From an uncultured Bacilli bacterium (GTDB lineage: Bacteria > Bacillota_I > Bacilli_A > RF39 > UBA660), in assembly GCA_944358705.1 (NCBI GenBank), contig CALVRR010000012.1, positions 1-47,710 of the forward strand: a DNA stretch of 47,710 bases, written 5' to 3'. Of the stretch, positions 22,492 through 44,508 are shown piece after piece. The notes under the pieces were generated by a model that was not told the origin of the DNA, searched no databases, and was given only the letters and a program-made list of their open reading frames with translations. Both the position numbers and the translations under genes were made by a program. Positions within the stretch are counted from its first letter, which is position 1, and every line of letters starts with the position of its first letter.

Positions 22492-22520
22492 TTGTAAATT
22501 TAATAAAAATTGGATACAAT
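22492..22520 (+). promoter_or_regulatory. sigma-A-type promoter at the head of the surface-protein locus
   Basis: TTGTAA (5 of 6), 17-base spacer, TACAAT (5 of 6), about 66 bases before the first gene. This one lacks the TGn extension common elsewhere in the window. Confidence 0.5.
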
Positions 22521-22585
22521 AATCATAGACATAGTAGGAAAGGGAGCAAGTGATGTACTAGAAAGCAAAACAAGTGGTGATAAAA

Positions 22586-23284
22586 ATGGGATTAAAAACA
22601 GTAAATATTGAAGCAGAGAAAGTCTATAGAAAAAAAATTGTTTCTAGACTAATAAAAATAGCATTTTTATTATTGATTATATTTTTATCCGTTGTTTACT
22701 TATTCTTGTATATCGTCTACGATGGTGGAAGATTTACTGTGTCTTTGGATAGAAATATGTCAAATCGTAAGAATATATTTTTATCAGAAGATGGGAAATT
22801 GAAGTCAAAGACAAGAAAATTGTCTGCAGACACCATAGATTATATGGATAACATTTCTATTAAGTGGCTTCCTCAAAATATTGATACGGAAGCAACTGGT
22901 GCTCATAATGGAGATAACTATATCGCTTATACATTTTATGTAGTCAATGCTGGGGAAGAAAAAGTCCATTATTGGTATGAACTAGATATTGATGACACGA
23001 TAAAAAATGTAGATGAAGCTATTCGAATTATGATTTATAGAAATGGAAAACCCACAGTCTATGCCAAGAAAAATAAAACAACCAAGAAAAAAGAACCAGG
23101 TACAAAGAAATTTGTATCCAACGAAATTGCTGTACTGGAGCAAAGAAAAAATCTTCGCCCCGGAAAAAAAGATCGCTTTACTATTGTGATATGGATAGAA
23201 GGCGACGATCCAGAGTGTAACAATGCCTTACTTGGTGGAGAAATTAAAATGCACATGGATATAACAGAAGAACATATCGCATAA
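22586..23284 (+). CDS. membrane-anchored TasA-related surface protein
   Basis: 232 residues from ATG 22586, after GTGGTGAT; GTG 22574 is the other choice. One hydrophobic helix lies near residues 24-45, with the rest outside. The C-terminal part carries IVIWIEGDDPECNNALLGGE, and the next protein ends with a matching IYMWVEGQDVDCENNASGGD (W-x-E-G-x-D-x2-C-x-N...GG). So the two share a C-terminal domain of the TasA/CalY-like surface type. Unlike the other small surface proteins here it lacks the [ST][YF][AT]x[YF] motif after the helix, so it may stay anchored. It is 17 bases upstream of the next gene. It could be an anchor or assembly partner. Confidence 0.6.
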   Translation: MGLKTVNIEAEKVYRKKIVSRLIKIAFLLLIIFLSVVYLFLYIVYDGGRFTVSLDRNMSNRKNIFLSEDGKLKSKTRKLSADTIDYMDNISIKWLPQNIDTEATGAHNGDNYIAYTFYVVNAGEEKVHYWYELDIDDTIKNVDEAIRIMIYRNGKPTVYAKKNKTTKKKEPGTKKFVSNEIAVLEQRKNLRPGKKDRFTIVIWIEGDDPECNNALLGGEIKMHMDITEEHIA

Positions 23285-23301
23285 GAATAAGGAGTGAAAA
23301 A

Positions 23302-24318
23302 ATGAAAAAAGAAGACAAAAAGAAAAAAAGAAAAATATTGTTATCCCTAATTATGATTTTATTTGTGGGAGTAATTTTAACTGCATCAACTTATACATGG
23401 TTCACTGCCAATAGAGTTGTTACAGTAGAAGCTTTAGATGTTAATGTATCTACAACCGCTGGATTATTAGTTTCTGTAGATGCAATTAACTGGAAAACCA
23501 TCGTAACAAAAGATGATATTAAAAATGCCAGTGGTACTTACCCTGCTGCAGTAAATCAATTACCTGCTGACACGACAGAACCAGTATCATCTGCCGGTGA
23601 AGTAGACGCAGGAACTGGTTTTATGAATATGTTTAAAGGAACACTTACAGCAAATGACACTGGTGAGTTTAAAGATTTAACAGCAACAAAATCAACAGAA
23701 GAAAACGGAGAGGATGGAGATTTTATTGCATTTGACTTATTCTTTCAAACCAACCAACAAACAGATTTATATTTAACAAATAACTCAACAGTAACTGCTG
23801 GACTTACCGATACCAATATTCAAAATGCTACACGTGTTGCATTCGTACCACAAGGTAATATCTCAGATACAAGTAACAGTTCTGGGGCACAAGCATTAAA
23901 AGCAACTGATAGTACAGGATTAAAAATTTGGGAACCAAATGCCGATACACATACTTCTGGAGCAGTTGCCAATGCAGCAAATTATCCTGGACTTGCAGAC
24001 GGCATTAGAGCTGGATCAGGAAATGCAACATTAAAATATTACGGAATAAAAGCCGCTATTGCTACAAAAGAAGATATCGCATCAACCAGTACAACATACT
24101 TTACTGATATGAATACAACAGGATTCATTATGGATACTCCAGCATCAGGAATTCCTGATTCTGCCTATAAACAAGTACTTCATTTACAAGCTGGTATTAC
24201 GAAAGTTAGAATCTATATGTGGGTAGAAGGACAAGATGTTGACTGTGAAAATAATGCATCTGGTGGAGATCTATTATATAACTTACAATTTAGCTCACTA
24301 GCAAGTGCAAACGCTTAA
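23302..24318 (+). CDS. TasA/camelysin-like secreted surface protein
   Basis: 338 residues. A basic start (KKEDKKKKRK) is followed by a helix at residues 12-28 and then TYTWFTANR at 30-38, the pattern seen where SipW-type signal peptidases cut TasA-like precursors. The body is rich in Thr, Asn, Ala and Ser, and uses codons such as GCA/ACA more than its neighbours, as for an abundant exported protein. It contains SVDAINWKT early and MWVEGQDVDCENNASGGD near the end. The ribosome site AAGGAGTG is strong. A GC-rich hairpin follows the stop and may cap this message. It is the likely main subunit of the surface structure; the fibre role is inferred from TasA. Confidence 0.65.
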   Translation: MKKEDKKKKRKILLSLIMILFVGVILTASTYTWFTANRVVTVEALDVNVSTTAGLLVSVDAINWKTIVTKDDIKNASGTYPAAVNQLPADTTEPVSSAGEVDAGTGFMNMFKGTLTANDTGEFKDLTATKSTEENGEDGDFIAFDLFFQTNQQTDLYLTNNSTVTAGLTDTNIQNATRVAFVPQGNISDTSNSSGAQALKATDSTGLKIWEPNADTHTSGAVANAANYPGLADGIRAGSGNATLKYYGIKAAIATKEDIASTSTTYFTDMNTTGFIMDTPASGIPDSAYKQVLHLQAGITKVRIYMWVEGQDVDCENNASGGDLLYNLQFSSLASANA

Positions 24319-24343
24319 GAGTAATGAATAGATAAAATACACG

Positions 24344-24366
24344 AAGGCCTTCCAAGAAGGCCTTTT
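24344..24366 (+). terminator. strong hairpin with short T tract
   Basis: Perfect 9-pair stem AAGGCCTTC / GAAGGCCTT with a CAA loop, followed by only TTTT. Probably a partial terminator or a 3'-end stabiliser that lets some transcripts reach the next genes. Confidence 0.65.
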
Positions 24367-24384
24367 AAAATAGTAGGAGGGTTT

Positions 24385-24489
24385 ATGGAACAAGCACAAA
24401 AAATATTAGAATTGTATCAACAAATTGAAAAACATATTCGTTATCTAGAGGGAAAAATAATAAGTGAGGAAGAGGAAAATGACAACTGA
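24385..24489 (+). CDS. 34-residue helical protein coupled to the next gene
   Basis: A 34-codon gene starting at ATG 24385, with a perfect AGGAGG (24375-24380) and a 4-base spacer. It ends at TGA 24489, 11 bases inside the next gene. The product is one charged amphipathic helix (MEQAQKILELYQQIEKHIRY...). It may be a real small coiled-coil partner of the 551-residue protein or a translational lead for it. No relative is recognised. Confidence 0.55.
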   Translation: MEQAQKILELYQQIEKHIRYLEGKIISEEEENDN

Positions 24490-26134
24490 TTTGCAAGAAC
24501 AAATAAAAAAAGAAATAGAAATCAATGAAAATCATATAGAAAACTTTCCACTAGAAACCGAAACTGGAACAAAAAAAATGAAAGAAAAGTTCCATCAAAA
24601 AGCAGTCCAAGAACGAAATGCTTATATTGAAAAAGAGTTAGAAAAATTCAAAGAATTTCAAAAGAATACCTTTCAAGAATTAGACTCTTATATGAAATCA
24701 GTTTTTCCGGAAAATAAAAACGAATCTTATCAACAAGAAGAAGAACAATTATCAGAAATATTAAAAATAATTCCTAGTACTGATGATAAAATATCCTTAG
24801 AAATGAATCTTGGTTTTGCTCATATTTTTCATCAATTATCAGCAGAAAGTGAAACACTGTTGAATAATATTAATGGTTGTGTATTGGATTTTATAGAAAA
24901 GATGCAAAATGCCAAGATAAGTTTAACGATAGAAGACTTCAATTATAGCCCTTTTGTAGAAACGTATATGAAAATCTTACTAGAAAATAGGAACCAAGAA
25001 AACTTTGACGATTTAATGCAAAATGCCTTTAAAGAAATTTACTGGGAATGTCCAGAAATTATTATGCATATCAAACGAAATTTAATCGCATTGGTAAAAA
25101 AACATTATCAAAAATTAAAAGAATACAACAAAGAAAGAGTAGATCGATGGTTACAAGAAAAAACTTTAACAAGACAAAACATTATAGAAATTTATCAACA
25201 ACAAATGTTAGAGTTACAAACAAAAAAAGAAAAAGACGAATTTAGAAATCTCCAAAAATTCTTAGATAAAAATAAAAACATAGACGATTATACAGAAGGA
25301 GCACCTCTACGTAATAAAAGTTTTAATCAATTAGTAATCAAAGAAACCTATAAAGAATTATCAGAAGAAGAAAAAAATGTTTTCGACAAAGAAACGATTA
25401 CTTTAGGAAGACATTTGAATATTTTAAAAGAATACTATCGTTATGAAAGTATTATCAAAGATATAATTGAACGTTTCAAGAAAAAAGAGGAAGCTAAAAC
25501 CAAATACGATGCTAAGGAAAAAGAAATACAGGCTGAAGAAAAAGTTCGCGAAAAACTATACAAAGACTATCAAAAAGCAAATGGAATTGGCTTTCTAGCA
25601 AGAAAAAATCCTGTGAAAATGGCAGAATTAAAAGTAAAAATAAAAGAACAAATTAATAAATTAGACACTTTATATAATGATTTAGAAGAATTAGAAATAG
25701 ATTTAAAAATTAGAGAAAATTTAAGTGAAGGAAGTAGTATTTACGATGCTTTAATTACAAGTATAAGTTCTTATACTTATATCGAAAAAGTAATGGTAGA
25801 AAAGTTTAAAGATGTAGATACAGATTTTGATTTATCAAAGTATGTAAGAGAGTATATTGAATTTATCTATAATCCAAATGCAGATTTTCTTCATAAAATT
25901 GCAGTTCTATTAGACTATGATATTGCGGATGTAATTTCAGAAAAATACGCTTTATTAGGAATTAATATAAATAAAGAGGAGATTACTCAAGATAACATCG
26001 ACACAGCGATTGCTACTCTAAATGTAGTAACACTAACAAACAATATTAAAAATTCTAATATGTCGATAGAAGAGATGAAATTAATCTGTGATATTAATAG
26101 GATAGATTATAAACCAGAAGAAGAAATATTATAA
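24479..26134 (+). CDS. unrecognised helical / coiled-coil cytosolic protein
   Basis: 551 residues from ATG 24479, after GAGGAAGAGG; GTG 24464 is less likely. No membrane helix or signal peptide. Charged helical segments dominate: residues 1-95, and a clear coiled coil near 345-430 (KKKEEAKTKYDAKEKEIQAE, later KMAELKVKIKEQINKLDTLY). The middle has patterns such as DLMQNAFKEIYWECPEI. It lies inside the surface-protein locus between the main subunit gene and the first signal peptidase. A cytosolic scaffold for export or assembly is a guess. It is not a family I know. Confidence 0.55.
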   Translation: MTTDLQEQIKKEIEINENHIENFPLETETGTKKMKEKFHQKAVQERNAYIEKELEKFKEFQKNTFQELDSYMKSVFPENKNESYQQEEEQLSEILKIIPSTDDKISLEMNLGFAHIFHQLSAESETLLNNINGCVLDFIEKMQNAKISLTIEDFNYSPFVETYMKILLENRNQENFDDLMQNAFKEIYWECPEIIMHIKRNLIALVKKHYQKLKEYNKERVDRWLQEKTLTRQNIIEIYQQQMLELQTKKEKDEFRNLQKFLDKNKNIDDYTEGAPLRNKSFNQLVIKETYKELSEEEKNVFDKETITLGRHLNILKEYYRYESIIKDIIERFKKKEEAKTKYDAKEKEIQAEEKVREKLYKDYQKANGIGFLARKNPVKMAELKVKIKEQINKLDTLYNDLEELEIDLKIRENLSEGSSIYDALITSISSYTYIEKVMVEKFKDVDTDFDLSKYVREYIEFIYNPNADFLHKIAVLLDYDIADVISEKYALLGININKEEITQDNIDTAIATLNVVTLTNNIKNSNMSIEEMKLICDINRIDYKPEEEIL

Positions 26135-26176
26135 AAACTATTGTATGAAAAATTTTTCAAAGAATAGTTTTTTTTT
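26133..26176 (+). terminator. Rho-independent terminator
   Basis: Outer stem AAAAACTATT / AATAGTTTTT around an inner GAAAAATTTTTC, followed by a long T run. It overlaps the stop codon of the coiled-coil gene. Confidence 0.7.
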
Positions 26177-26184
26177 CTGTAATA

Positions 26185-26193
26185 TGTTATAAT
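26185..26193 (+). promoter_or_regulatory. extended -10 promoter (TGTTATAAT)
   Basis: TG-T-TATAAT, 35 bases before the first signal peptidase gene. Begins the peptidase plus giant-protein unit. Confidence 0.6.
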
Positions 26194-26228
26194 GAATTAT
26201 AAAAGAATAAAGATGGCGTGGTGAAAAA

Positions 26229-27485
26229 ATGAGAGCAACAAAAAACGTAGTAAAATCAATTGGATATTTATTCGTAGGTATGCTAGTTGCTTTATGTGTA
26301 TATACCTTTATTATGACGGATATCTTAAAAAAAGATTATGCGAATGTCTTTGGGTATACTTATTTTGTAGTAGCAACGGGATCAATGTCTGGAACAATTG
26401 AAGTAAATGATGTAGTGATTGTAAAGTTAGGACAAGAAGCAAATATTAATGACATTATTACTTATCAAACAGAAGATGGAGATTTTATTACGCATAGAGT
26501 CGTAAAAAAGATAGGAAATCAAATTATTACCCAGGGAGATGTAAACAATACAGAGGATGATCCTATTAAAAAAGAAGAAATCGTAGGAACTGTAAAACTA
26601 GTGATTTCACCAAGTTTTGTATTGAAACTAATTGCGGTAATATTAATCGTCTTCATCTTACTTGCTTTCCTAAATTTTGATAAAATTTTCAAAAGATTTA
26701 TTGTAGGAGAAGAGAATACATCAAAGAAAATAACAAAAGGTAGTGTTCCAGAAGAATTATTCACAACAACTCCAGTAAAAAAAGAAGAAAAGTCAACAGG
26801 TAACACAGTAAATATTCCAATTAGCGAAGTATTGCAGATTCAAAAAGATCAAGAACTAGCAGAAGTAGAAGATGAAATTGAAGTTTTAGAAATAGAAGAC
26901 ATCATTGATATAGATGATAACAATATCATAAGAAAAGAAAAAAACAGTGCCAAAGAAAAGGAAAAAGAACTTCTAGAACAAGTATTAAATTTACTAAGAA
27001 TTAAAAATGATACTTTAACAATTACCAAGATGAATAAAAAATGGTTAACAAAATACCAATACGTTTACAAGTTGGCACAAATTCTATCCATGGGAGATAG
27101 TACAGAATTAACAGAAACTATTATGCATCCAACATTTAAAGAAATCTATGATTATGACTTAGAACGTGCTGGCTTATATGAGAATTTAAGAAATAAAATT
27201 TATGGGATGCCAATTTATGTGTTTTTACGAATTTTAACATTTGCGATACTATACAACGATCAAACATTTTTTGATGGTGTATACAAAATATTAAAATATA
27301 AAGTACAAATTGATAGTGAAAACCATTTTAAAGAAATAAAGAAAAATGATGCTTATGCCAAAAAACAATTAAAATCATTAATTACATTTATGCAAAAAAT
27401 ATCGATTCGTTTTGATAATAAAAAGGTATTTGAATTAGATAGAATCGAACGTTATGTAAAATTAAAAAATTATGTAAATCACTAA
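26229..27485 (+). CDS. SipW-type signal peptidase I with long C-terminal extension
   Basis: 418 residues. The peptidase domain (residues 1-165) has a helix near 9-30, the nucleophile region VATGSM (S52), DFITHRVV (H89) and ITQGDVNNTEDDP, then a second helix near 135-155. A His in place of Lys is typical of the SipW/ER-type enzymes, which in Bacillus process TasA and TapA. After the second helix comes an acidic tail (EIEVLEIEDIIDIDDNN) and a helical domain of about 170 residues, which ordinary SipW (about 190 residues) lacks. It lies 16 bases before the giant gene, so that protein is a likely substrate or partner. It could also cut the TasA-like proteins nearby. Confidence 0.85.
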   Translation: MRATKNVVKSIGYLFVGMLVALCVYTFIMTDILKKDYANVFGYTYFVVATGSMSGTIEVNDVVIVKLGQEANINDIITYQTEDGDFITHRVVKKIGNQIITQGDVNNTEDDPIKKEEIVGTVKLVISPSFVLKLIAVILIVFILLAFLNFDKIFKRFIVGEENTSKKITKGSVPEELFTTTPVKKEEKSTGNTVNIPISEVLQIQKDQELAEVEDEIEVLEIEDIIDIDDNNIIRKEKNSAKEKEKELLEQVLNLLRIKNDTLTITKMNKKWLTKYQYVYKLAQILSMGDSTELTETIMHPTFKEIYDYDLERAGLYENLRNKIYGMPIYVFLRILTFAILYNDQTFFDGVYKILKYKVQIDSENHFKEIKKNDAYAKKQLKSLITFMQKISIRFDNKKVFELDRIERYVKLKNYVNH

Positions 27486-27501
27486 AAAGGAGGGACTTGC
27501 G

Positions 27502-30500
27502 GTGAAGAAGTGGAAACGAAAAACATCGGCAATTATGAAAATAACTTGTGCTTTTCTTATTCTAATTTCTTGCTTTGGAATAATTAATCTCTTCACTGCA
27601 ACAACTACTTTAAGTAACATAGAAGAAGCCTGGGATGGAGTAGAAGTAGCTACTTCTTTTTCTGGTGGTAACGGAACCAAAGAAAATCCATATCAAATAT
27701 CAAGTGGAAGGGAATTAGCCTATTTAAAGCAAATAGTAGAACAAAACCAAATTCCCAATTTACAAGAAAAATACTTTGTTTTAATGAAAGATATTGACTT
27801 AGGAGGAAACAATTGGCAAGGAATTGGTACTAAGAATGAAGATATTGAACTTCCTTTCTCTGGTCATTTTGATGGGGCTGGATACAGTATCAAAAATTTT
27901 AAAATAGAAACACCAACAACCATAGACAATGTAGATTACTACGGCTTATTTAATCTAGTATCAAATGCAGAAATAAAAAACTTAAACTTAAATAATGTAA
28001 CAGTTACCACAACCTCTTCAACCAACCTAGTAACGCTTGGATTAATTGCAGGAAAAGTAACCGGAACAACTTCAATAACAAATATCGCAACACAAGATAC
28101 CGTGTTAGACTTATCAAAAACTCTAGGAACCAAAGAAAATAAAATTGGTGGGCTTTTTGCAGAAATTGAGGAAAAGGTAACCGTTGAAAATATTTATAAT
28201 AATATGGAAATAAAAGATACAAATGCAAATTCCTATGGAAAAGTATTTGGTATTTTAAAAGGACAAGCAAACAACATCGTAACAAAAGTAACCTACAGTA
28301 ATTTCCTATCTGTAAATATACCAGTGGCAAAAGAAATAAAAGAACCTGGAAAACTAGAAAATGATTATGAATTAACGAGTGATAACAAGTTATATATTTC
28401 ATCGAATGAAAATATTACTTTAGAAGAATTATTAGATAACTTAAATAAAAAAATAGAAACAGATTATCGCTGGGTAATTAGTGATGTAAACTTAAAAATT
28501 AGTAGGTTAGAAGACCTTAAAGTAACAAAAGAAGAACAAAAAAAAGATGTACCAGCTCTCTTTAACTTTGGAAGAAGTGCCGCAATACCTCTACATGATA
28601 CAGAAATGACAGATACAACGGTATATATTAATGATTTAGATAGTGATTATAACTACTATAAAGGTCTAAATTACACTTCCTCAGAAACAGGAACATTACC
28701 AACAGGAAATAATCAAGGAATTTATACAGATAATAATTTAGTAAAAGCGTATATAAAATATAGTGGAGAAGACATTAATAACTCTGATTTAGTTGGTCAT
28801 GTGAGTCTAGAAGAACAACAAAGTGAATTAATCTATTACAAATATTATCCAGTAGAAGCCGTAACGGAAAATGGACAAACCAAATATTATGCAACCATTG
28901 AATTAATTGACAATCCATTTGCCGATCATCCAAATAACAAGGGATTTAACGGATGGGTAACCGATGATCCGAATACTGAAATAATTTATGATGCGGATAC
29001 GTATACAAGATATGCCCGAGTAGAAGTAACTTATACCAATGGAATACCAGATACGATTAATGTAACTTTTCATAGTTATTGGATAGAAGCAACAGTTTAT
29101 GAAATGACAAGGTCAAACGATTGGACCAATGCTTTTGCAGCGTTAAAGAATGTAGGAATGGAACCGATTAAAAGCACTCATGAGGTTTATGAAGATATGA
29201 GTAATTATTATATTCGAGGAACCATATCACGTAGAGAGTATTTTCCAACAGGAGCCGTAAATGATTATGGTAACAATATAGGAGGAAATCGCTGTGGTAG
29301 TACTAGATGTACATATTATACTAAAAGCAGTTCAAACTATGACCCAGATAGTGATTACTATCGATTTACAGGTTCTTCTATGGTTTCTTATACACCAAAA
29401 CCAATTGGTCAGGAAACAGAAACGATTGTTCCAGAAGGAAGTGTAGCATCTGGATTATATCGCCCGGTAACAATTAATAGATATCAAAGTGTCGCCGGCT
29501 ATTATGATGAAACAGGGCAGTATCAAGAAAGTGGAACTTGTAACAGCAGTAGAGGATGTACGTACTACGAATTAGAACAATATTACGATGCATCTGGAAA
29601 TGTAAATGTAGTAACCGAAGATAGCGATTTATATTATTTAGTAACAAGAGATACCAATATTATTGTTTTAGAAACCACTTGCGATGAAACTTGGAATGGA
29701 ACAAAACCATTTACCTTAACAGGAATATATAATGGTCAAGACTTTAGTGATAATGAACTAAATATTGAAGCTGAAAGAGATTGGTTTGGAAATTTAGATG
29801 GTGGAACGTACATTAGAGCTTATGCAGATACTAGAATTGAGTACCTTACCATTACTACAGGTCAAGAAAAGGAAGCTAATGGTACACCACCAAGTAATGG
29901 AACAAGGGCAGAAACAATTTATGGTTATTGGCATAACCTAAAAATTGGACGCGGAGTAAAGCCAGGAAATGGAAACAATTATACAACGGCCAATACCATT
30001 CTCGCTGGGGGAAATAACAGTGTAGGAAGCGAAGGCAATATAGAAAGATACAAAATGATTGTAGAATCCGGAGTTTATAATTTAGCTTCTGCTACGAACG
30101 GAACTTCAAGTAGTACTCTACGCATTGATGGACAAGTGGTATATGGAAGCGATTATGACCGCGTAGCAAAAAACAATGATAATCTAGAAATTTATTTCTG
30201 TGCATCTGGCAGCTGGGGAGGGTATATTTATTCTAATTCCACTCAAACAGGAGTTGCTATTCACACTAATGTAAAAAGCGGATCTTTCGGAACAAGTGAA
30301 TATGATTATTCCACAGGAATCTATATTGGTGGACGTCAAGGAGGAACCCATTACGCTGCAAGAGATGCTATCATTGAAGGTGGCGATATTTATAATTTAA
30401 TTGGCGGCCCATTAACTGCTAGCAATCGGACCAATATCAATGACACTTACATTAATATAAAAGGTGGAACCATTGATATGGTAATCGGTGGAGCAGGTGC

Positions 30501-35757: not shown

Positions 35758-35765
35758 ATAAAAGT

Positions 35766-35795: not shown

Positions 35796-35859
35796 GAAAA
35801 AAAAAAAGAAATATGTTACTCTAAAATAGAATATAAAATAGAAATGGGTGGACACAGTG

Positions 35860-36474
35860 AAAAAGTTTCTAAAAGGTTTATGGGGATTGGTAGAAGTAAT
35901 CATTATTATTTATGTAATTTGCATGACTGCCTTCTTATTATGTAAAAATAAATATGGATTTACACAAATAGGAGATATGACCTATATTACCATAAACGAA
36001 CATCTACAATCTTATCTACCAGAAACCAAAGAAAATGATTTGTTAATGGTAAAACAAAATAATAAAGATATTAATGTAGGAGATAAAATATATTATTATG
36101 CCGTAGAAAATAATGAATATGTTATTAAAACAGCCCATGTAAAAGAAATTGTTATTTCAGAAGACGATATGGCACTATATCAGTTAGATGATGAAGCAAA
36201 AACAACAATTGCAACAACAAGAGTCATTGGTAAATATTCAGCAATCTATCATAATATTGGTGGAGTTTTAGATGTCTTACAATCTAGAATTGGCTTCTTA
36301 TTATTAGTCATCTTACCAATTTTATTAATATTTATGTATCAAATTTATGCATTAATTATAGTAATAAAATATGGAGAAGAAGAGCTTCAAGAGAAAAGTT
36401 CTAGTGACAAGCCCCAAGCAAATAATAACAACAAGGATAAGAAAAAGAAAAAAGAAGAGATTGAACTACTATAA
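35860..36474 (+). CDS. signal peptidase-like protein lacking the catalytic serine
   Basis: 204 residues from GTG 35860, eight bases after GGTGG; GTG 35848 is possible. The layout copies the SipW-type enzymes nearby: helix near residues 10-29, a soluble domain, and a second helix near 140-165. It keeps ENDLLMVKQ and NVGDKIYYYAV (compare VNDVVIVKL and INDIITYQT). The place of the ATGSM nucleophile reads DMTYITINEH, and THRV has become KTAHV (H93). So it is most likely inactive as a peptidase and may bind precursors or regulate the active copies. The tail is highly charged (NNNNKDKKKKKEE). It is bounded by two terminators. Confidence 0.65.
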   Translation, partial: KKFLKGLWGLVEVIIIIYVICMTAFLLCKNKYGFTQIGDMTYITINEHLQSYLPETKENDLLMVKQNNKDINVGDKIYYYAVENNEYVIKTAHVKEIVISEDDMALYQLDDEAKTTIATTRVIGKYSAIYHNIGGVLDVLQSRIGFLLLVILPILLIFMYQIYALIIVIKYGEEELQEKSSSDKPQANNNNKDKKKKKEEIELL

Positions 36475-36497
36475 AGGATTAAGAGTTTAATCTTTTT
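36474..36497 (+). terminator. Rho-independent terminator
   Basis: Stem AAGGATTAA / TTAATCTTT (one G-T pair), loop GAGT, then a T/C-rich run. Confidence 0.65.
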
Positions 36498-36518
36498 CTT
36501 TTTCTCTAAAAAAGTATG

Positions 36519-36527
36519 TGGTATAAT
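36519..36527 (+). promoter_or_regulatory. extended -10 promoter (TGGTATAAT)
   Basis: TG-G-TATAAT, 23 bases before the first of three small surface protein genes. Confidence 0.55.
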
Positions 36528-36550
36528 AAAATGGAAAGGTAGAGTAAAAG

Positions 36551-37129
36551 ATGGTAAAGAAAAAAAGAAGAACAGGGATAATAATAATCGCTCTAATATT
36601 GGTGTGCCTCCTTTATTTACATGCAAGTAGTACTTATACCTCTTACGAATCAGAAGTAGAAGGTTCTGCTGATAGCGAAGTAGCAGATTGGAAAATAAAA
36701 GTAAATGATACCTTAATTACTGCGGACCAGACAACAACAATTAATATTGATAGTATTGACTGGGAAACAGAGCACACTAGAGAAGGAACCATCTCTCCTG
36801 GAACTTCTGGAACGATTACCGTTACCGTTGATCCAACAACGACACAAGTTGCTTTTGATTATGAATTAATAATTATTGACAAAACAGTAGACGAAACAAA
36901 ATTATTAACAGTAACATCAGTAGAAAATACCTTAACTCCTTTAACAAAAGAAGATAACATTTATCGTGGAATCATGACGTTAGAAAATATAAAGAATAAA
37001 GCAACCGATACCATCAAAATTCATGCAATCTGGGATGATAATGGAGAGGACGTAGAAGTAGACCCAGACGAAGAAACAGAAAAAAGCGATTTAATAGAAA
37101 TAGACTTTAAAGCAAAGCAAAGAACCTAA
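36551..37129 (+). CDS. TasA/camelysin-like surface protein
   Basis: 192 residues. A basic start is followed by a helix at residues 9-24 and then STYTSYES (27-34), the shared juxtamembrane motif. A beta-rich body begins ADSEVADWKIKVNDTLI, close to SDIASWNIKVNGEDI in the minus-strand protein at 43874-44473, and later has TISPGTSGTITVTVD. This is the usual layout of SipW-dependent TasA/CalY proteins. The tail is very acidic. The gene starts a set of three surface proteins and precedes the next by 13 bases. Function as a fibre or matrix subunit is inferred. Confidence 0.65.
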   Translation: MVKKKRRTGIIIIALILVCLLYLHASSTYTSYESEVEGSADSEVADWKIKVNDTLITADQTTTINIDSIDWETEHTREGTISPGTSGTITVTVDPTTTQVAFDYELIIIDKTVDETKLLTVTSVENTLTPLTKEDNIYRGIMTLENIKNKATDTIKIHAIWDDNGEDVEVDPDEETEKSDLIEIDFKAKQRT

Positions 37130-37142
37130 GGTGGTGAAAAAC

Positions 37143-37772
37143 ATGACTAAAAAGGTAAAAATATTTGAAAAACTAAAAAAAGAAAATATTTCATATTTTG
37201 AAGAGAAAAAAAGATTTTTAATCGTTATTTTAGTCATGTTTATCTTAATTGTAGTAGCAATAAAATTATTACAAATAGCTTATGCATCTTACGAGTCCCA
37301 AGCAAAGTTAAATGCAAATATTGATAAAGCATTATATATACTAAAAACCGGAGGAATGAATTTTAATATTGATTTAGATAAAATCGAACCCTCTAGTAAA
37401 CCATATATATATAAATTTAGTATCTCAAACTTTGATGGAAATAGACATAGTGATGTAGACATTGAATATCAAATGAATATCACCACAACAACCAATCTAC
37501 CACTAACTTATGAATTATATCGAAATGAAAACTATGATGATGAAAATGCAACCAATTTATTTGAAAATATGAAAACCAAACAAGATGTCGATGGTGCTTG
37601 GTATAATTATTTAGAAGGACAAGAAAAGTATCTGTTTCCTTATGAAGAAGATAAAACAGATATTTATACATTAGTGGTTTATTTTCCAGAATCCAATAAA
37701 ACAACAACAGAATATGCTGACAATTTAGAGAATATCGAAGTAGAAATAAAATCAAATCAAGTAACAGAATAG
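37143..37772 (+). CDS. TasA/camelysin-like surface protein
   Basis: 209 residues from ATG 37143, after AAGGTGGTG; GTG 37131 is the alternative. The N-terminal part is longer than usual: 24 residues of basic cytosolic sequence, then a helix at about 25-46 and IAYASYESQAK at 45-55. A beta-rich body follows (GGMNFNIDLDKIEPSSKPYI, later EYQMNITTTTNLPLTYELYR). The sequence after the helix matches the motif seen in five other proteins of the locus. It lies 9 bases before the next member. Probably a minor subunit of the same surface structure. Confidence 0.6.
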   Translation: MTKKVKIFEKLKKENISYFEEKKRFLIVILVMFILIVVAIKLLQIAYASYESQAKLNANIDKALYILKTGGMNFNIDLDKIEPSSKPYIYKFSISNFDGNRHSDVDIEYQMNITTTTNLPLTYELYRNENYDDENATNLFENMKTKQDVDGAWYNYLEGQEKYLFPYEEDKTDIYTLVVYFPESNKTTTEYADNLENIEVEIKSNQVTE

Positions 37773-37781
37773 AGGTGTCAT

Positions 37782-38714
37782 ATGGAATTTATTAGAAAAC
37801 ATAAAAGACTAAGTATTCTAATATTGATAATAGCCATTCTTTTACTATTCTTTGGAACAACATTTGCTCGTTATATCTACAATGCGATTCATAATTATAT
37901 TTTAGAAAGTAATGAATTTTATTTTAATAGTACCGTACTAGATATGAATGGAAGACAGTACAAAATTAATAACTGGGACGGAGTCAACGATTATGTATTA
38001 ACAATTGATGTAAATAACAAAAAGAATTCATTAAAAGCAACCTCTAGTGATATTGCTTATGATATTGAAGTAAGTTGTCCAAGTAGTGTGGAATGTCGTC
38101 TAAATAAGACAGAAGGAATTATCTATGAATCCTCTGGAACCGATAGCTATCAAATTACAGTAATTCCAAAAGAAGAATTTCATGAAGGTGATGAAATTGA
38201 TGTAACAACCACGGCAACCTCCAAATCCCCTTATGTAAAAGCGTTATCAGCAACCTATACCATAGGAATTGAAACAACTAACTTTACTTATAATATTGAA
38301 GACAATACAGATAATAAATACTTAACTCTAAATTTAACGAATTCTGTAACTTATTATCGAGTAGAAAAAGCTTTCGGATCTTATACGGAAGGAGAAAGAA
38401 TTACTCCAGAAGAGTATCAAAAACTAACCGAAGAAGAGAAAGAAAATTGTTTTTCTGCTAAAGTTACCGTATCTTTTTCTCCTAGAGAAATCTATTTAGA
38501 TATGACAAATATTAACTATCTACACCGAATAGAAAATAGTGAAAAGAAAGAACAAATTGACGGCTTTGACTATATAAACGAATTTACCTTTAAAATGGAC
38601 GCTAGTTCCAGTGAAAAAATAATATTTTATAAAAGTGATCCAGAGAAAAACTATACATACCCAATTGTTAATAATACACCAATTGTAACAGTAACTGTAG
38701 AAACTGCAGAATAG
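37782..38714 (+). CDS. SipW-dependent-type surface protein
   Basis: 310 residues. A helix at residues 10-25 is followed by TTFARYIYNAI (26-36), the shared juxtamembrane motif. The body is beta-rich, with one Cys pair (CPSSVEC) near residue 105 and TATSKSPYVKALSATYTIGI in the middle, like the repeated sandwich domains of other surface proteins. The ribosome site GAGGTGTC is good. It is the last gene before the promoter of the AAA+ unit. Its larger body suggests a tip or adaptor protein; that is a guess. Confidence 0.6.
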   Translation: MEFIRKHKRLSILILIIAILLLFFGTTFARYIYNAIHNYILESNEFYFNSTVLDMNGRQYKINNWDGVNDYVLTIDVNNKKNSLKATSSDIAYDIEVSCPSSVECRLNKTEGIIYESSGTDSYQITVIPKEEFHEGDEIDVTTTATSKSPYVKALSATYTIGIETTNFTYNIEDNTDNKYLTLNLTNSVTYYRVEKAFGSYTEGERITPEEYQKLTEEEKENCFSAKVTVSFSPREIYLDMTNINYLHRIENSEKKEQIDGFDYINEFTFKMDASSSEKIIFYKSDPEKNYTYPIVNNTPIVTVTVETAE

Positions 38715-38736
38715 ACTAGGAAACGAAAAACTTTTA

Positions 38737-38745
38737 TGATATAAT
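38737..38745 (+). promoter_or_regulatory. extended -10 promoter (TGATATAAT)
   Basis: TG-A-TATAAT, 30 bases before the 354-residue gene. Begins the AAA+/DUF2357/signal peptidase unit. No terminator separates it from the gene before. Confidence 0.6.
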
Positions 38746-38775
38746 TTACCTAGCATAAAATAAGGAGGGAATGAT

Positions 38776-39840
38776 ATGAAAGAAAATTTAATTACTAGAT
38801 TTTTAGAATATAAGAAAAAAAGACTAACCTCCTATGCCTTAACACTATTTCAAGAAAAAACATATAAAGAATTTGCTTTAGAGTGTCTAAAAAAATATAT
38901 TAATAATTATATAGAAGTATATTACCATCATCAATTTGAAACTCTAGGTCAAGGAACAAAGGTAGATCAAGAAGCAATCAAAATAGAACAAGAGGGAATG
39001 CGATTAGAATTATTAGAAGAACTTTCAGTAAAAGAAATCATAGAAACCAATGAGAGTTACGAAAGAAAAAAACAACTAATAAACGCGACTCATCAATACG
39101 TAGAGGCCATAATTCTTTTTGATTGGCAACAACCAACCAAAGAAAATATAAAAGAAATCATAACAGAAATAGTAAATAAAACAAGTAACAAACTTCCAGT
39201 ATTACCAACAACAATAAATAATTGGATGAAAAAATGGCAAGAGAATGAAAAGATAATCAAAGCTTTATTAGAAGAAAAAGATACTTTTATCTTAAATCAA
39301 ATTCCATATCATGAAGCTTTATGGGAAGTAAAAATAATATCCCAAATAAAACAGTTAAATAACTACAAAAAAAGTCTAGTAAAAAGAGTCGATGAAGAAG
39401 AAAAAGTAGTAACAGAAAAACTAAAATTAACAACAATATTAATGAATCAAGTAATATTAAAACAACTGATAAACAAAGAAAAAATAGGAGAATATATCTT
39501 CTTTATACCAGAAGAAATATGGTCAAAGAAAGAGGTAATGAATACCATTTATCAACTATTAGAGGATGATATACTAAAAGAGCATATTTTATTAGGCATC
39601 AGTTATAATCAAATGCTAAGTAGTAAAACAATTCAAGAAAAGAAAAAAAATGGATATCGCTTTGTTTGTTATCAAGACTTCACTCATATTTCAGACATTC
39701 CAAGTAAAATAGAAGCAATAGATACATCGAATTATTTCAACTATTTAATGGTAACTGGATATAAAGGAAAAGATTACGCAACGATTGAAAAAGAAGAACC
39801 AGTCAATATGAAAGCAATATTATTTAGTAAGGAAGGATAA
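38776..39840 (+). CDS. unrecognised helical cytosolic protein linked to the AAA+ gene
   Basis: 354 residues, no signal or membrane helix. Mostly helical and charged. The last 70 residues read like an alpha/beta barrel end (GYRFVCYQDFTHISDIPSKI, then NYFNYLMVTGYKGKD), which recalls EAL-type domains, but no catalytic motif is complete. The ribosome site AAGGAGGG is strong. It ends two bases before the AAA+ gene and is certainly in the same unit. It may supply substrate recognition for the AAA+ protein. I do not recognise a family. Confidence 0.5.
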   Translation: MKENLITRFLEYKKKRLTSYALTLFQEKTYKEFALECLKKYINNYIEVYYHHQFETLGQGTKVDQEAIKIEQEGMRLELLEELSVKEIIETNESYERKKQLINATHQYVEAIILFDWQQPTKENIKEIITEIVNKTSNKLPVLPTTINNWMKKWQENEKIIKALLEEKDTFILNQIPYHEALWEVKIISQIKQLNNYKKSLVKRVDEEEKVVTEKLKLTTILMNQVILKQLINKEKIGEYIFFIPEEIWSKKEVMNTIYQLLEDDILKEHILLGISYNQMLSSKTIQEKKKNGYRFVCYQDFTHISDIPSKIEAIDTSNYFNYLMVTGYKGKDYATIEKEEPVNMKAILFSKEG

Positions 39841-39842
39841 AT

Positions 39843-41390
39843 ATGGACACATTTATAAGATTTTTATATGAATTTATGTCAGTTTTCTTTAATGGACTGT
39901 TTACAATAGGACGTGGAATTGTATTAGGATTTGCCCAGATGTTTAATTTTAGTGAATATTTATATATCATACAATTTTATAAGAATGATTTTCAAATGGC
40001 AGAATGGGTCCTAGTCGTAATTGCAATTATTGTTTTATTAGTAATGTTAACATTAATTGTTTTACTTGGTTGGTTACTAATTAGAAAATATATACGTTTT
40101 CGAAAAACATTGGTAGAACAAGAATCCATGTTAACAGAAATTGGAGAGTTAAATAATAAAGTAGCAAGTCTAGTAAAAGAAAAAGAAGAAATTCTAGCGA
40201 TGAAAGTTTCACAACTAGGATTAAAACCAGGAGAAGCGGAAATATTAAGTGAAGAAGAAACGAAGAAAGAAGATGCAAAAGAAAATCCTGCCTTAGAAGA
40301 AGATGATAGTAAATATCGTTTCTCAAAACTACATGCTATTGATTTACAGTATAGAGATTATAAAGTTCAAAATTATAACAATACATTTACTCTAGAAGAA
40401 TTGGTAGAAGAATTTAGAAACTTTGCTGCTTCTAAATTAAGATTATATTATACAACCAAAATGATTCGTTTATTTATTTCTGCCTTATCCGCAACGAAAT
40501 TAGTAATATTACAAGGTATCTCTGGTACAGGTAAGACTTCCCTTGCTTATGCCTGGGGAAAATTTATCAAACGAGATGCAATTATCGCCTCAGTACAACC
40601 ATCATGGAGAGATCGTACAGAGTTATTTGGATACTTCAACGAATTCACCAAGAAATTTAATGAAACCGATGTTTTAAAAGGAATGTATATTGCTGGATAT
40701 ACCGACGATGTTTATGTAACCGTACTAGACGAAATGAACATTGCCCGTGTCGAATATTATTTCGCAGAAATGCTATCCATTCTAGAAATGCCATCACGGG
40801 AAGAATGGATTATCGAATTAGTACCAAGTAGTTGGGATACCGATCCGAAAAAGTTAAAAAATGGAAAATTACAAATTCCAGGAAATATGTGGTATATAGG
40901 TACCATCAATAATGACGACTCTACCTTCGCCGTAACCGATAAAGTATATGACCGTGCTATGCCAATTGATATCAATGACAAAGGACAACCATTTACTCCA
41001 GTAGATACTGAAGCAATGAATATTAATAGTTCCTATTTAGAAGGATTATTTGCCGAAGCAAAACAAAAACATCCTTTATCCGAAGAAATGGAACAAAAAA
41101 TTAGTGAAATGGATGATTATGTAATTAAACATTTCCGTATCGCTTTCGGTAACCGTATTGTAAAACAAATGAGAGATTTTGTAGCAACGTATGTAGAATG
41201 TGGAGGAACCGAAGTCGATGGCGTAGATTACTATATTGCCAGAAAAATATTAAGAAAATTTGAACAATTAAACTTAGCTTATATTAGAGATGAAATTGAT
41301 GGTTTCGTTGATTACTTAAATAAAGCTTTCGGAAAAGAAAACTTTAATGAATGTAAAGAGTACTTATTAAGATTAAAGAAATTAGTATAG
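39843..41390 (+). CDS. membrane-anchored McrB-like AAA+ NTPase
   Basis: 515 residues. The N-terminus is hydrophobic, with a strong helix near residues 52-80, followed by a coiled coil (85-120) and an acidic linker. The AAA+ domain starts near 200: Walker A GISGTGKTS (225-233), Walker B VTVLDEMN (292-299), then ARVEYYFAEMLSILEM as in McrB. It also has TINNDDS (354-360), which fits the N-x2-D motif of McrB GTPases, and YDRAMPID with a likely arginine finger. So it belongs with McrB rather than MoxR. McrB normally works on DNA with McrC; a membrane anchor and neighbours that make surface proteins are unusual. GTP or ATP use is not settled. The next gene is its probable partner. Confidence 0.8.
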   Translation: MDTFIRFLYEFMSVFFNGLFTIGRGIVLGFAQMFNFSEYLYIIQFYKNDFQMAEWVLVVIAIIVLLVMLTLIVLLGWLLIRKYIRFRKTLVEQESMLTEIGELNNKVASLVKEKEEILAMKVSQLGLKPGEAEILSEEETKKEDAKENPALEEDDSKYRFSKLHAIDLQYRDYKVQNYNNTFTLEELVEEFRNFAASKLRLYYTTKMIRLFISALSATKLVILQGISGTGKTSLAYAWGKFIKRDAIIASVQPSWRDRTELFGYFNEFTKKFNETDVLKGMYIAGYTDDVYVTVLDEMNIARVEYYFAEMLSILEMPSREEWIIELVPSSWDTDPKKLKNGKLQIPGNMWYIGTINNDDSTFAVTDKVYDRAMPIDINDKGQPFTPVDTEAMNINSSYLEGLFAEAKQKHPLSEEMEQKISEMDDYVIKHFRIAFGNRIVKQMRDFVATYVECGGTEVDGVDYYIARKILRKFEQLNLAYIRDEIDGFVDYLNKAFGKENFNECKEYLLRLKKLV

Positions 41391-41409
41391 GAAAAAAGGA
41401 GGAAGGATC

Positions 41410-42537
41410 ATGAATTCAGAAGAATTAGAAATATTAGAAGAATCTACCAATCAAGATATTTTTATGAACAATATGAATGCCATTCTATCGGTAAAAACTG
41501 ATTATGAAAAAAGAGAATATGATTATGAATGGATTGATATCATTGATGAGACCCTTCCTTATATTGATAATATTTTAAGAAATCCCAAAAGATTTATTAT
41601 TAACGAAGAAGAAGTAGTACAAGTAGAAAAATCAAAAAAAGTAACCGTAGAAAGTATTATCCATTTAACTCAACATACCAACTACATCCAAAAAATAGAA
41701 GACAATGGAGATGTCAAACCATCCAAAATATTAAACATCAATAAAGAAGAAAGTCTAGATACTTATGAAAATAGATTTATTTATACTTTGATTAATAATA
41801 CGAGAACTTTTTTTGAAAAAAGAAAAAGTGAAACTGGAGAATTTTCTTTTTTTAGAGATAAGAAGAATTTAAAGTATGAAGCAAATACCATAATTAACAG
41901 TGAAGAAATAGAAATTTCTTTAGATATTTCCTCAAGAAATGAAGCAAAACTAAATTCCAAAGATACTTCATCCGAAGAATCCATAGCCGATAGATTAAAA
42001 AGAATTAAAATTCAATTGGATGGGTTCATGGGATCGGAATTAATGCAGACATTATCCAAACAACACGTATCCCCAGTTCGTTCTCCCATTCGAAAAACAA
42101 ACGTAATCTTAAAAAATCCAAACTTCCAAAAAGCAGAAGCTCTATGGAACTATATTCAAATGTATGAAGAAAAAGATACGAATGAAAAAGAAAAAAAAGA
42201 TTATTATGACGAAAGTAATTTAAAAAAACAATATACTCAGGCTTTTCTAACGTTATATTTAGCAAACAAAGCCCTAGATCATGAAGGAGAAAAGGTAACC
42301 GCAGAAAATTTACTATCTCAGACAATGAATCGTCTAATTGAAAACATTCTAGATAGTAATGATGATATAACAGAAAAAGAAATAAAAGAGTTGTTTGAAA
42401 AACAACTAAAATTAATCAAAGAAGCAAACGAAGAAAAGAAAAGAAAAATCAAAAAACTATTATTAGATAAACTAGAAGAAGAACAAAAAAAATATAAGAA
42501 AGAATGGAGTATATTAGAGGGGACGATAATATGTTAA
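41410..42537 (+). CDS. DUF2357 protein, McrC-like partner without nuclease
   Basis: 375 residues, cytosolic. The block ESLDTYENRFIYTLINNT near residues 113-130 matches the [DE]xYEN[RK]F core of DUF2357/McrC proteins. VSPVRSPIRKTNVILKNPNF near 220 is the second typical segment. McrC has a C-terminal PD-(D/E)xK nuclease; here the C-terminus is helical and charged (EEKKRKIKKLLLDKLEEEQK), with no nuclease motif visible. The gene follows the McrB-like gene by 19 bases with ribosome site AAGGAGGAAGG, so the two form a pair. It overlaps the signal peptidase gene by 7 bases. It likely controls or links the AAA+ ring. Confidence 0.7.
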   Translation: MNSEELEILEESTNQDIFMNNMNAILSVKTDYEKREYDYEWIDIIDETLPYIDNILRNPKRFIINEEEVVQVEKSKKVTVESIIHLTQHTNYIQKIEDNGDVKPSKILNINKEESLDTYENRFIYTLINNTRTFFEKRKSETGEFSFFRDKKNLKYEANTIINSEEIEISLDISSRNEAKLNSKDTSSEESIADRLKRIKIQLDGFMGSELMQTLSKQHVSPVRSPIRKTNVILKNPNFQKAEALWNYIQMYEEKDTNEKEKKDYYDESNLKKQYTQAFLTLYLANKALDHEGEKVTAENLLSQTMNRLIENILDSNDDITEKEIKELFEKQLKLIKEANEEKKRKIKKLLLDKLEEEQKKYKKEWSILEGTIIC

Positions 42538-43121
42538 GAAAAATATTAGACAGTAAATATTTTCAGATTCCTTTTAAGATAGTAAAGTTTATTATTTTTC
42601 TAATTTTAATTGTATACTTAGCCTTTATTGTAATTCAAAGAATCTCTGGAAACCAAAGCATCTTTGGATATCGTATTTTCGCTGTTGCAACAGGAAGTAT
42701 GGTGCCAGATTATAATGTCAATGATGTCCTTGCCATTAAAGAAGTAGACCATGATGAATTACAAGTAGGGGATGATATAACATATTTAGGAGAGCGACAA
42801 GACGTAAATGGAAAAATCGTTACCCATAGAATTATAGATATAAAAACGATAGATGGAAAAAAAACATATATTACCAAGGGAATCAACAATATAACAGAAG
42901 ACCCATCCATCGAAGATGATCAAATTTATGGAAAGGTAATGGGAAAAATCCCGGTAGTTACAGAGATTAATCACATAATAAAAAACCAATACGGTTTCTT
43001 CTTCTTAATTTTTATTCCTCTAGTAACCGTTATATTTTTAGAAATTGCTGATACAGTAACAGAAATAAAACATGAAAAAAAGGATGTTGAAGAAAATGGA
43101 GAACCAGAAGAAATTATCTGA
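42531..43121 (+). CDS. SipW-type signal peptidase I
   Basis: 196 residues from ATG 42531, after GAGGGGACG; earlier in-frame starts lack a ribosome site. It is the usual SipW size: helix near residues 15-35, nucleophile region VATGSMVPDY (S56), VGDDITYLG, KIVTHRII (H99), ITKGINNITEDPSI, and a second helix near 155-175. Ser and His are both intact, so it should be active at the outer membrane face. It overlaps the DUF2357 gene by 7 bases and the next surface protein gene by up to 50 bases, so expression is tied to both. Its expected substrates are the TasA-like proteins of the locus. Confidence 0.88.
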   Translation: MLRKILDSKYFQIPFKIVKFIIFLILIVYLAFIVIQRISGNQSIFGYRIFAVATGSMVPDYNVNDVLAIKEVDHDELQVGDDITYLGERQDVNGKIVTHRIIDIKTIDGKKTYITKGINNITEDPSIEDDQIYGKVMGKIPVVTEINHIIKNQYGFFFLIFIPLVTVIFLEIADTVTEIKHEKKDVEENGEPEEII

Positions 43122-43848
43122 CAACTCACTAACAATAGAAAAAAAGAAAGCCAGAAAAAGGGTAGTTATTCGTAGTTTATTATTAATTGCCTTATTATTG
43201 GTAGTGAATACTTTTGCTTGGTTTACTTATATTTCTAGAGCTGGAGTAACGTTAAATGGAAGCGTTATAGACTGGGATATATCTTTCTTAAATGAAAATG
43301 GAGCTGTGAAAGATATACAAATAGACATCACAGATATGAAACCAGGAATGATACCCTTCGAATATAAAATACAAATTCAAAATAATAGTGACGTAGCGGC
43401 AAATATAAAATATGATATTAAATCAGTAAAATTACTAGGAACAGAATTACTCCAAGAAGGACAAGAAGATCAAATAGAAGAAAGTCTGAAAACAGAATAT
43501 CCATTTGTTTTAGAATTAATTACGGAAAAAGATGATATTGGAATAAATGAAATGATTAACTTTAAAACAACCCTAAATTGGGATTACCAAGCTAGTAATT
43601 ATTATAAACTTAATAATTTATATACTTATGATGCAGGGGTATATTACTATACAATTATAGATGACACCTACCAAGTAGATAATACAGTAACTGAAGAAAA
43701 CTTTAAAGAAAAAGTAGCAAGTGGACTTTATTTAGAAAAAGATGATGCAGATAGTTTCTTTGGGTATGCCTGTGGTAAATACGAAGAAGAAACGAAAAGT
43801 CCATGCCTACAAATGAAATTAGATTTAAATGTTACACAAGCAAACTAA
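43072..43848 (+). CDS. TasA/camelysin-like surface protein
   Basis: 258 residues if ATG 43072 is used; ATG 43084 or 43096 are possible, and none has a strong ribosome site, which fits translation coupled to the signal peptidase gene it overlaps. After a basic segment, a helix at residues 33-46 is followed by TFAWFTYISRAG (47-58), the canonical SipW-substrate pattern (compare TWAAF in Bacillus TasA). Then LNGSVIDWDISFL and IQNNSDVAANIKYDI resemble the TasA/CalY sandwich. A Cys pair near the C-terminus (YACGKYEEETKSPC) may form a disulfide. Being coupled to the active peptidase, it is the most likely direct substrate. Confidence 0.7.
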   Translation: MKKRMLKKMENQKKLSDNSLTIEKKKARKRVVIRSLLLIALLLVVNTFAWFTYISRAGVTLNGSVIDWDISFLNENGAVKDIQIDITDMKPGMIPFEYKIQIQNNSDVAANIKYDIKSVKLLGTELLQEGQEDQIEESLKTEYPFVLELITEKDDIGINEMINFKTTLNWDYQASNYYKLNNLYTYDAGVYYYTIIDDTYQVDNTVTEENFKEKVASGLYLEKDDADSFFGYACGKYEEETKSPCLQMKLDLNVTQAN

Positions 43849-43875
43849 AAGAAGGTTCAAACAAAACCTTCTTTT
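43847..43875. terminator. bidirectional terminator between converging surface protein genes
   Basis: Stem AAAAGAAGGTT / AACCTTCTTTT, loop CAAACAA. It overlaps both stop codons region and serves the plus-strand and minus-strand genes. Confidence 0.85.
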
Positions 43876-44473
43876 ATTCATTTAATTGAGAAAATTGTAA
43901 TGTAACTTTCATTAAAGCTGTACTTTGATCATTAATACCAACTTCAGTATCCGCTTGATTATCCATACTTCCATCCTCATCTTCCCATTTCAAATAAATA
44001 CGAAATATGTATTCATTGGTATTTCTAGGAATCTTTTGGACAATACCAGTATCAGGAGAATAGGTAAGACGGTTCTCCGTATCCGTAGGATTTACTTCGT
44101 AAGATAAAGTTTTTAAGTCAGAAACACTAGAATCTGGTGAAACTTCAGAGCGAATACTACATTCAAAAGGAACATCAACATCACTAGCATCAATAGTAAT
44201 TGTATAATATCCCTCAACTCCAGGAGCTATTACTCCAGCAGCACTATTTTCACTTTCTAAAAATGTTGGTTCAATGGTATTTGTAAGCGTCTTCTTATTC
44301 GCAATATCTTCTCCATTAACTTTAATATTCCAACTAGCAATATCACTTGAAACATTACCAGAAATCCCACGACGATACCTAGCATAAGAAGACTGAAATA
44401 AATAAATAAGGCAACAACCAACAATCACTACAAATAAGACAATAAATCGTAAATCTTTTTTCTTACTAGACAT
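43874..44473 (-). CDS. TasA/camelysin-like surface protein on the opposite strand
   Basis: 199 residues from ATG 44473, after AAGGTAGGTG; a GTG at 44485 is in frame. A helix at residues 9-26 leads into SSYARYRRGISG (28-39), the shared juxtamembrane motif. The body begins SDIASWNIKVNGEDI, near-identical in pattern to ADSEVADWKIKVNDTLI of the 36551 protein, and has GVIAPGVEGYYTITID like TISPGTSGTITVTVD there. So it is a paralog of that protein. It has its own promoter and opposite direction, so it may be expressed under other conditions. It closes the locus. Confidence 0.65.
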   Translation of the reverse strand: MSSKKKDLRFIVLFVVIVGCCLIYLFQSSYARYRRGISGNVSSDIASWNIKVNGEDIANKKTLTNTIEPTFLESENSAAGVIAPGVEGYYTITIDASDVDVPFECSIRSEVSPDSSVSDLKTLSYEVNPTDTENRLTYSPDTGIVQKIPRNTNEYIFRIYLKWEDEDGSMDNQADTEVGINDQSTALMKVTLQFSQLNE

Positions 44474-44499
44474 ATTATAAGACACCTACCTTATATTAA

Positions 44500-44508
44500 A
44501 TTTTACCA
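44500..44508 (-). promoter_or_regulatory. extended -10 promoter (TGGTAAAAT)
   Basis: Minus-strand TG-G-TAAAAT, 27 bases upstream of the minus-strand surface protein start. Confidence 0.45.

Follow-up and report, generated by a model that had tools for sequence, protein, structure and literature searches.

A candidate surface-fibre system joining SipW-type signal peptidases to a membrane-anchored McrBC-like NTPase in uncultured Bacilli

What does a relative of a restriction-enzyme motor do among signal peptidases and the proteins that they may cut? The question is raised by a 22-kb gene block on contig CALVRR010000012.1 of an uncultured Bacilli bacterium (order RF39, family UBA660), whose 47,710 nucleotides, here called the window, span the contig end to end in a 1.7-Mb assembly (GCA_944358705.1) that is 94.99% complete with 7.5% contamination. 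We believe that the block probably encodes a genuine machine, so far hardly studied, that builds a fibre or coat on the cell surface. The reading that we favour, without being sure of it, is that a membrane-anchored McrBC-like nucleoside triphosphatase (NTPase) controls how TasA-type surface fibres mature and assemble. The fibre is the likely part of this reading; the exact role of the motor we infer, and it may lie in supplying the energy for building or releasing the fibre. Every gene named in the original prediction, which was made from this DNA alone, was found as an intact open reading frame (ORF) at its position, and the block reads as follows.

22574-23284, + strand: A, single-pass anchored protein without SipW motif; C-terminal domain in common with B
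23302-24318, + strand: B, SipW-type precursor; motif STYTWF; beta-sandwich in the AlphaFold2 model
24464-26134, + strand: C, 556-aa soluble protein with no known domain; near giant protein E in relatives
26229-27485, + strand: D, SipW-type signal peptidase; Ser and His intact; C-terminal extension of ~250 aa
27502-35757, + strand: E, predicted secreted protein of 2,751 aa; beta-solenoid-like YGG repeats
35848-36474, + strand: F, pseudo-SipW without catalytic Ser and His; kept throughout the family
36551-37129, + strand: G, SipW-type precursor; motif STYTSY; same family as O
37131-37772, + strand: H, SipW-type precursor; motif AYASY; C-terminal half in common with I
37782-38714, + strand: I, precursor-like protein; motif TFARY
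38776-39840, + strand: J, predicted cytosolic partner of K-L; directly 5' of K; fused to SipW in another clade
39843-41390, + strand: K, McrB-like AAA+ NTPase; transmembrane (TM) helix, Walker A, DEMN and NxD motif
41410-42537, + strand: L, DUF2357 protein (McrC N-terminal-like); PF09823; no nuclease domain found
42504-43121, + strand: M, SipW-type signal peptidase; Ser and His intact; directly 3' of L in most loci
43072-43848, + strand: N, SipW-type precursor; motif TFAWF; its ORF overlaps M
43846-43876, both strands: terminator-like bidirectional hairpin between N and O
43874-44485, - strand: O, SipW-type precursor; motif SYARY; TM helix and beta-sandwich in the AlphaFold2 model

At least 13 of these genes, from A to N (22574-43848), share one strand, with O alone on the opposite one, and junctions are short or overlapping in the K-L-M-N part. 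The window is low in G+C (26-39% in 2-kb steps), and a promoter scan gave candidate counts not above those of shuffled sequence. Is such a block a unit, or does a surface island merely lie beside an unrelated K-L pair, held there by descent in small genomes that rarely rearrange? A DUF2357 protein occurs in 41 of 145 genomes of the family, L being the sole one found in this assembly, and K-L stands together with the surface genes in most of the roughly 40 family loci. Their order is kept in more than 30 genera of the family: most family loci share a core (G-H-)I-J-K-L-M-N, O lying on the other strand (as in 53 of 54 relatives), and a second clade has H-I-F-D-K-L-M-N. A profile search recovered the system in 80 of 288 genomes from the order, every one of them a member of this family, and in 60 of 392 from the phylum, including several other families of the class. 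A-B-SipW-K-L-SipW is a common arrangement in those families, where the cargo differs, and it is also seen in metagenome-assembled genomes of Clostridia and Oscillospiraceae. In such distant relatives A often stands directly 5' of B or of the SipW-AAA+ genes. At least 574 relatives of K were found in named genomes; the best 80 come from metagenome-assembled genomes labelled Bacilli, Erysipelotrichaceae, Tenericutes, Clostridia and Oscillospiraceae, many from rumen or gut. Among these 80 loci, the DUF2357 gene lies directly 3' of the AAA+ gene in 76 of 78, SipW is nearby in 64 of the 66 that reach at least 14 kb, J is directly 5' of K in 56 of 80, and M stands at position +2 in 64. The original prediction proposed that conserved order in distant genomes would support a system, and allowed that the AAA+/DUF2357 pair and the surface genes might be joined only here; the joined set is in fact carried by other families of the class and by Clostridia.

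The locus is patchy, being present in under one third of family genomes, and its flanks are mostly variable around a fixed core order, which speaks for a unit. Pairwise distances of the other genes correlate with those of K (L 0.92, I 0.83, A 0.82, O 0.72, M 0.70, J 0.65), and Mantel tests over K, L, M, A, I, J and O gave r of 0.63-0.92 with p<=0.001. These correlations show co-inheritance, not function, and vertical descent of mere neighbours predicts them as well. Nonetheless, that explanation has the patchiness and fixed core order against it, as well as the recurrence of the linkage in distant families and in Clostridia, where the cargo is not the same, and the fusion of J to SipW described below, and we give it next to no credence.

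What, then, are the exported proteins? We defined the SipW-type motif as [YFW][AT]x[YFW] immediately after the N-terminal hydrophobic stretch, and six window proteins carry it (B, G, H, I, N and O); A does not, and its C-terminal domain is that of B (HHalign 98.3%), so that the count first made, six motif proteins and one related, holds. In related loci the strict motif is present in 53 of 64 homologues of B, 48 of 57 of N, 38 of 54 of O, 25 of 41 of G, 15 of 40 of H and 9 of 55 of I, against a background of 10 of 145 other proteins with an N-terminal hydrophobic stretch from the same loci. B, N, O, G and H thus carry the motif more often than this background, and I is weak under the strict pattern. 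The NCBIfam model TIGR04088, 'SipW-dependent-type signal peptide', was matched by 3 of 40 B homologues (best expectation value, E, 5.2e-05). This motif excess, in a conserved unit, agrees with the SipW/TasA-type surface system first proposed.

In Bacillus, TasA is processed by SipW and polymerises via donor-strand exchange (PMC9674648). No window protein matched the TasA family by sequence, and profiles of O and B found nothing convincing among solved structures; the likeness appears in predicted folds. The AlphaFold2 model of O (mean predicted local distance difference test score, pLDDT, 89.4) has a long N-terminal helix and a beta-sandwich, for which Foldseek put the TasA fibre 8aur in third place (E 3.9e-03, prob 0.98) and 7ueg, bundling pili of the archaeon Pyrobaculum, in fourth (E 4.3e-03, prob 1.00). 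A second structure comparison placed donor-strand pilins and other beta-sandwich adhesins on top (Z 5-6), with TasA at Z 5.2 and 3.7 A over 124 residues. B is likewise modelled as a beta-sandwich (pLDDT 84.5), and the second comparison ranked 8aur first (Z 5.1, 3.7 A, 134 residues) and the Sulfolobus 0406 filament second (Z 4.7). The recurrence of donor-strand fibre proteins near the top for two cargo families favours fibre subunits, as far as models can tell. Protein E, read at first as a secreted solenoid of 2751 residues, is indeed a single ORF, with 25 [VILF][YFHS]GG turns against a mean of 1.45 in shuffled sequence; the turns are spaced mostly 24-39 residues apart, many of them 24-26, between residues ~1020 and 1813, in a repeat region at about 1000-1820.

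A fibre or coat need not be vegetative, and the product could instead be an appendage or coat of the spore surface or forespore. TasA itself was first described as spore-associated (PMC9674648), and a SpoVAD gene lies on the same contig. That gene, however, is about 13 kb away with unrelated genes between, and no sporulation gene was recognised within the block, so we give a spore role very little credence. Outside the block, the SpoVAD match itself (8984-9976; 1.1e-125) means that this small genome retains at least part of the spoVA set, and the upstream neighbour of the block (20816-21799) joins a weak DnaJ-like start to a transglutaminase-like domain.

The peptidases supply the next step. 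M matches NF046067 (E 5.6e-26) and TIGR02228 (89.8 bits, above the cut-off of 51.85), and SipW-type profiles match D (3.9e-11) and F (4.5e-7). Window D and M retain the active-site Ser and His and window F has neither, as expected from the two intact copies and one inactive-looking copy first described; among aligned related SipW proteins both residues are present in 34 of 34 for D, 86 of 89 for M and 3 of 52 for F. The ratio of nonsynonymous to synonymous substitution rates (dN/dS) of F against two close relatives is 0.12 and 0.25, approximate values because dS exceeds 1. Judged by its sequence, F is no decayed copy: its Ser and His are lost, yet it is kept across genera with a low dN/dS, which makes it a pseudo-peptidase conserved by purifying selection. 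The inactive look first noted for it stands, and its status as a maintained protein is the correction. A lone SipW-like protein outside the block, on another contig of the assembly (C11:381-902, L236), is closest to the F family (E 4.5e-27).

One clade suggests a physical tie between the peptidases and the NTPase. There the D homologues are 668-811 aa long and end in a region homologous to J (HHalign 99.8%, E 1.2e-28), the J profile matching 11 fused D-type proteins at 7.8e-33 to 2.8e-41. The fusion is seen in relatives only, and the C-terminal extension of window D has no significant similarity to J. The C-termini of SipW peptidases are expected in the cytosol, so the fusion would place J beside the cytosolic K-L pair. 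J, at first listed simply as a linked cytosolic protein, is in the block as described and, by sequence comparison, would be better described as a core partner of K-L. Comparison of J with solved structures and Pfam gave no convincing match and no nuclease. A candidate EAL-like C-terminal domain of J (Pfam EAL in 2 of 23 members, best 0.011) was rejected when its profile, compared with those of EAL proteins, reached a probability of 0.8%, close to what controls gave.

The identification of K and L as an McrB-like AAA+ protein with a DUF2357 partner proved sound. K matches PRK11331 (5.2e-07) and, as a profile, the E. coli McrB structures (5.6e-07), and it carries the Walker A motif GISGTGKT, DEMN and the NxD-form GTINNDDST, the pattern GT[IA]N[NK]DDST being kept in nearly all complete K proteins of the family and also in members of the class. 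Pfam and NCBIfam revealed no nucleic-acid-binding domain on K; its N-terminus is a membrane anchor instead, a hydrophobic TM helix at about 48-85 followed in the consensus by a heptad-like LLEEIxxLNxxVxxL, judged from sequence to be coiled-coil-like, with a weak match of residues 63-116 to ftsL_broad (E 0.3). L matches PF09823 (4.7e-11, above cut-off), and complete L proteins are mostly 356-410 aa long in the family and 428-861 aa elsewhere. No Pfam nuclease of the PD-(D/E)xK kind was found in L or in 10 long homologues, though a very divergent one could have been missed, and the DUF2357 profile found no McrC match among solved structures up to E 1. Because the DUF2357 stalk of McrBC contacts and activates the McrB hexamer (PMC11090510), a K ring may reasonably be expected, by analogy, to be activated by L. 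Elsewhere, DUF2357-like proteins of about 330 aa occur with no recognised McrB-like neighbour (L069 9422-10405, L070 9348-10343).

Could the block then be an anti-phage defence of the McrBC/CoCoNuT kind, with its effectors at the membrane or outside the cell? Membership of K in the McrB-like family, the identity of DUF2357 as the McrC N-terminal domain, a match of K to the PADLOC phage-defence candidate model PDC-M26A (1.9e-33) and the prediction that the NxD relatives called CoCoNuTs are defence systems (PMC11090510) would all fit. We nonetheless consider this quite unlikely, given the nuclease searches of L, J and the long L homologues, the anchor that K bears in place of a DNA-binding domain, partners that are exported structural-type proteins and peptidases, and the absence of any PADLOC match among the remaining block proteins scanned. 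K also found just partial AAA+ matches below 60% identity in plasmids and phages, hence no sign that they carry its system.

The partners of the module vary. Five loci (L051, L053, L056, L057 and L048), 4 of them without a recognised SipW nearby, keep J-K-L beside another surface-type single-pass protein, one with Asp-rich DxDGDGxxDxN repeats; in one variant without SipW nearby the module follows a T2SSE-family ATPase gene, and J-K-L may serve single-pass surface proteins in general. In two further loci (L196, L198) the genes directly after K-L encode a single-pass protein of great length that matches E (2,768 aa in L196) and a G-type precursor, with no SipW within the fetched stretch.

The general pathway can be sketched from these parts. 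The single-pass precursors B, G, H, I, N and O would be exported by Sec, with A remaining anchored; M and D would trim the precursors behind the hydrophobic stretch, and F might hold them without cutting; the beta-sandwich domains would then polymerise, probably via donor-strand exchange as in TasA, with the giant E exported alongside them as a partner or adhesin. At the cytosolic side of the membrane, K would form an AAA+ ring that is anchored by its own TM helix, is activated by L and cooperates with J, and J, given the fusion, could be the physical link between NTPase and SipW. K, L and J together would thus be an McrBC-like NTPase controlling the assembly of peptidase and precursor.

Several points weigh against this pathway. 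SipW/TasA systems known so far are described without an NTPase, so energy may not be needed, and with the ring in the cytosol and the fibre outside, force would have to cross the membrane. Elsewhere in the same assembly, two small loci pair SipW with short precursor-like proteins and have no McrB/DUF2357 (contig C6 at ~36.5-40.1 kb, L233; contig C8 at ~31.4-34.1 kb, L235). For B, Foldseek by itself found nothing convincing, and the fold matches of B and O are modest (Z 5-6) and could reflect merely a common beta-sandwich; the structure prediction proposed at the outset placed both proteins near the TasA fibre, at modest scores. The PDC-M26A match of K belongs here too. A related possibility is that K-L, perhaps with J, is a regulator or quality control of a SipW-secreted coat, for example by sensing precursor load through SipW or by timing release, and that the fibres self-assemble, like those of TasA. 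Besides the NTPase-free TasA/CalY systems, this draws on the fusion of J to SipW, not to cargo, and on the slower evolution of K and L than of most cargo (dN/dS about 0.06 for K, the slowest of the compared genes, against 0.2-0.4 for N), as would suit a common controller. Nonetheless, it leaves unexplained the retention of a ring NTPase beside SipW in so many lineages, and no sensor or signalling domain was recognised; we regard it as unlikely.

We therefore keep to NTPase-controlled fibre maturation and assembly. A bolder version, possible though doubtful, is that in Bacilli and Clostridia a nucleotide-driven ring motor of McrBC ancestry came to assemble or export TasA-type donor-strand fibres, with J coupling it to the active peptidases and the pseudo-peptidase helping to handle precursors. 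If true, the locus would be a surface-fibre system of uncultured gut Bacilli and Clostridia under the control of a restriction-enzyme-related NTPase, placing a McrBC-type motor outside nucleic-acid defence; it would also define a conserved, catalytically dead signal peptidase and give a testable function to the CoCoPALM class, so far merely named.

Among known systems, chaperone-usher pili and archaeal thread and bundling pili resemble the modelled precursors (PapG, FimG, CsuA/B, 7ueg, 7pnb; Z 3-6), but here no chaperone or usher was recognised and maturation is of the SipW type. The Bacillus tapA-sipW-tasA and sipW-tasA-calY operons share the SipW-type peptidase, precursors with the SipW motif and beta-sandwiches near the TasA fibre fold; they have one SipW, whereas this block has two active and one inactive, their precursors are fewer than six or seven, and no AAA+ protein, DUF2357, J or giant solenoid is described in them. 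With the type IV restriction system McrBC of E. coli the block shares an AAA+ protein that aligns with McrB, DUF2357 in L and the tandem gene pair, but its motif is NxD and not NxxD, a membrane anchor stands in place of a DNA-reading domain, and no nuclease was found. CoCoNuTs likewise pair an NxD-motif McrB-like NTPase with a DUF2357 partner; in the block no nuclease, RNA-binding or HEPN partner is seen, and the partners are exported. The closest counterpart is CoCoPALM, named by Bell et al. 2024 (eLife, PMC11090510) for an NxD McrB with a transmembrane/coiled-coil domain together with signal peptidases, given a few sentences and deferred, the peptidases being called likely pilus assembly factors (PMC11090510). 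Our literature search found no later CoCoPALM paper, and SipW and McrB together just in a paper that is, by its available portion, about a screening system. The system is thus not undescribed, as had been proposed, since an McrB-like GTPase with signal peptidases had been named, though not characterised (PMC11090510). The locus, with its NxD McrB-like NTPase, N-terminal TM and coiled-coil-like stretch, DUF2357 partner and linked signal peptidases, shows most of the features compared and is a variant of that kind. Two more CoCoPALM traits are homology of the N-terminal domain to FtsB, for which K offers the weak ftsL_broad match, and a coiled coil fused to the McrC-like protein, on which the lengths of L bear. 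The text of the CoCoPALM paper describes no arrays of SipW/TasA-type precursors, pseudo-SipW, J or J-SipW fusion, giant solenoid or short L (~375 aa); what is new here is a conserved pseudo-SipW under purifying selection and, in one clade, a J domain fused to SipW.

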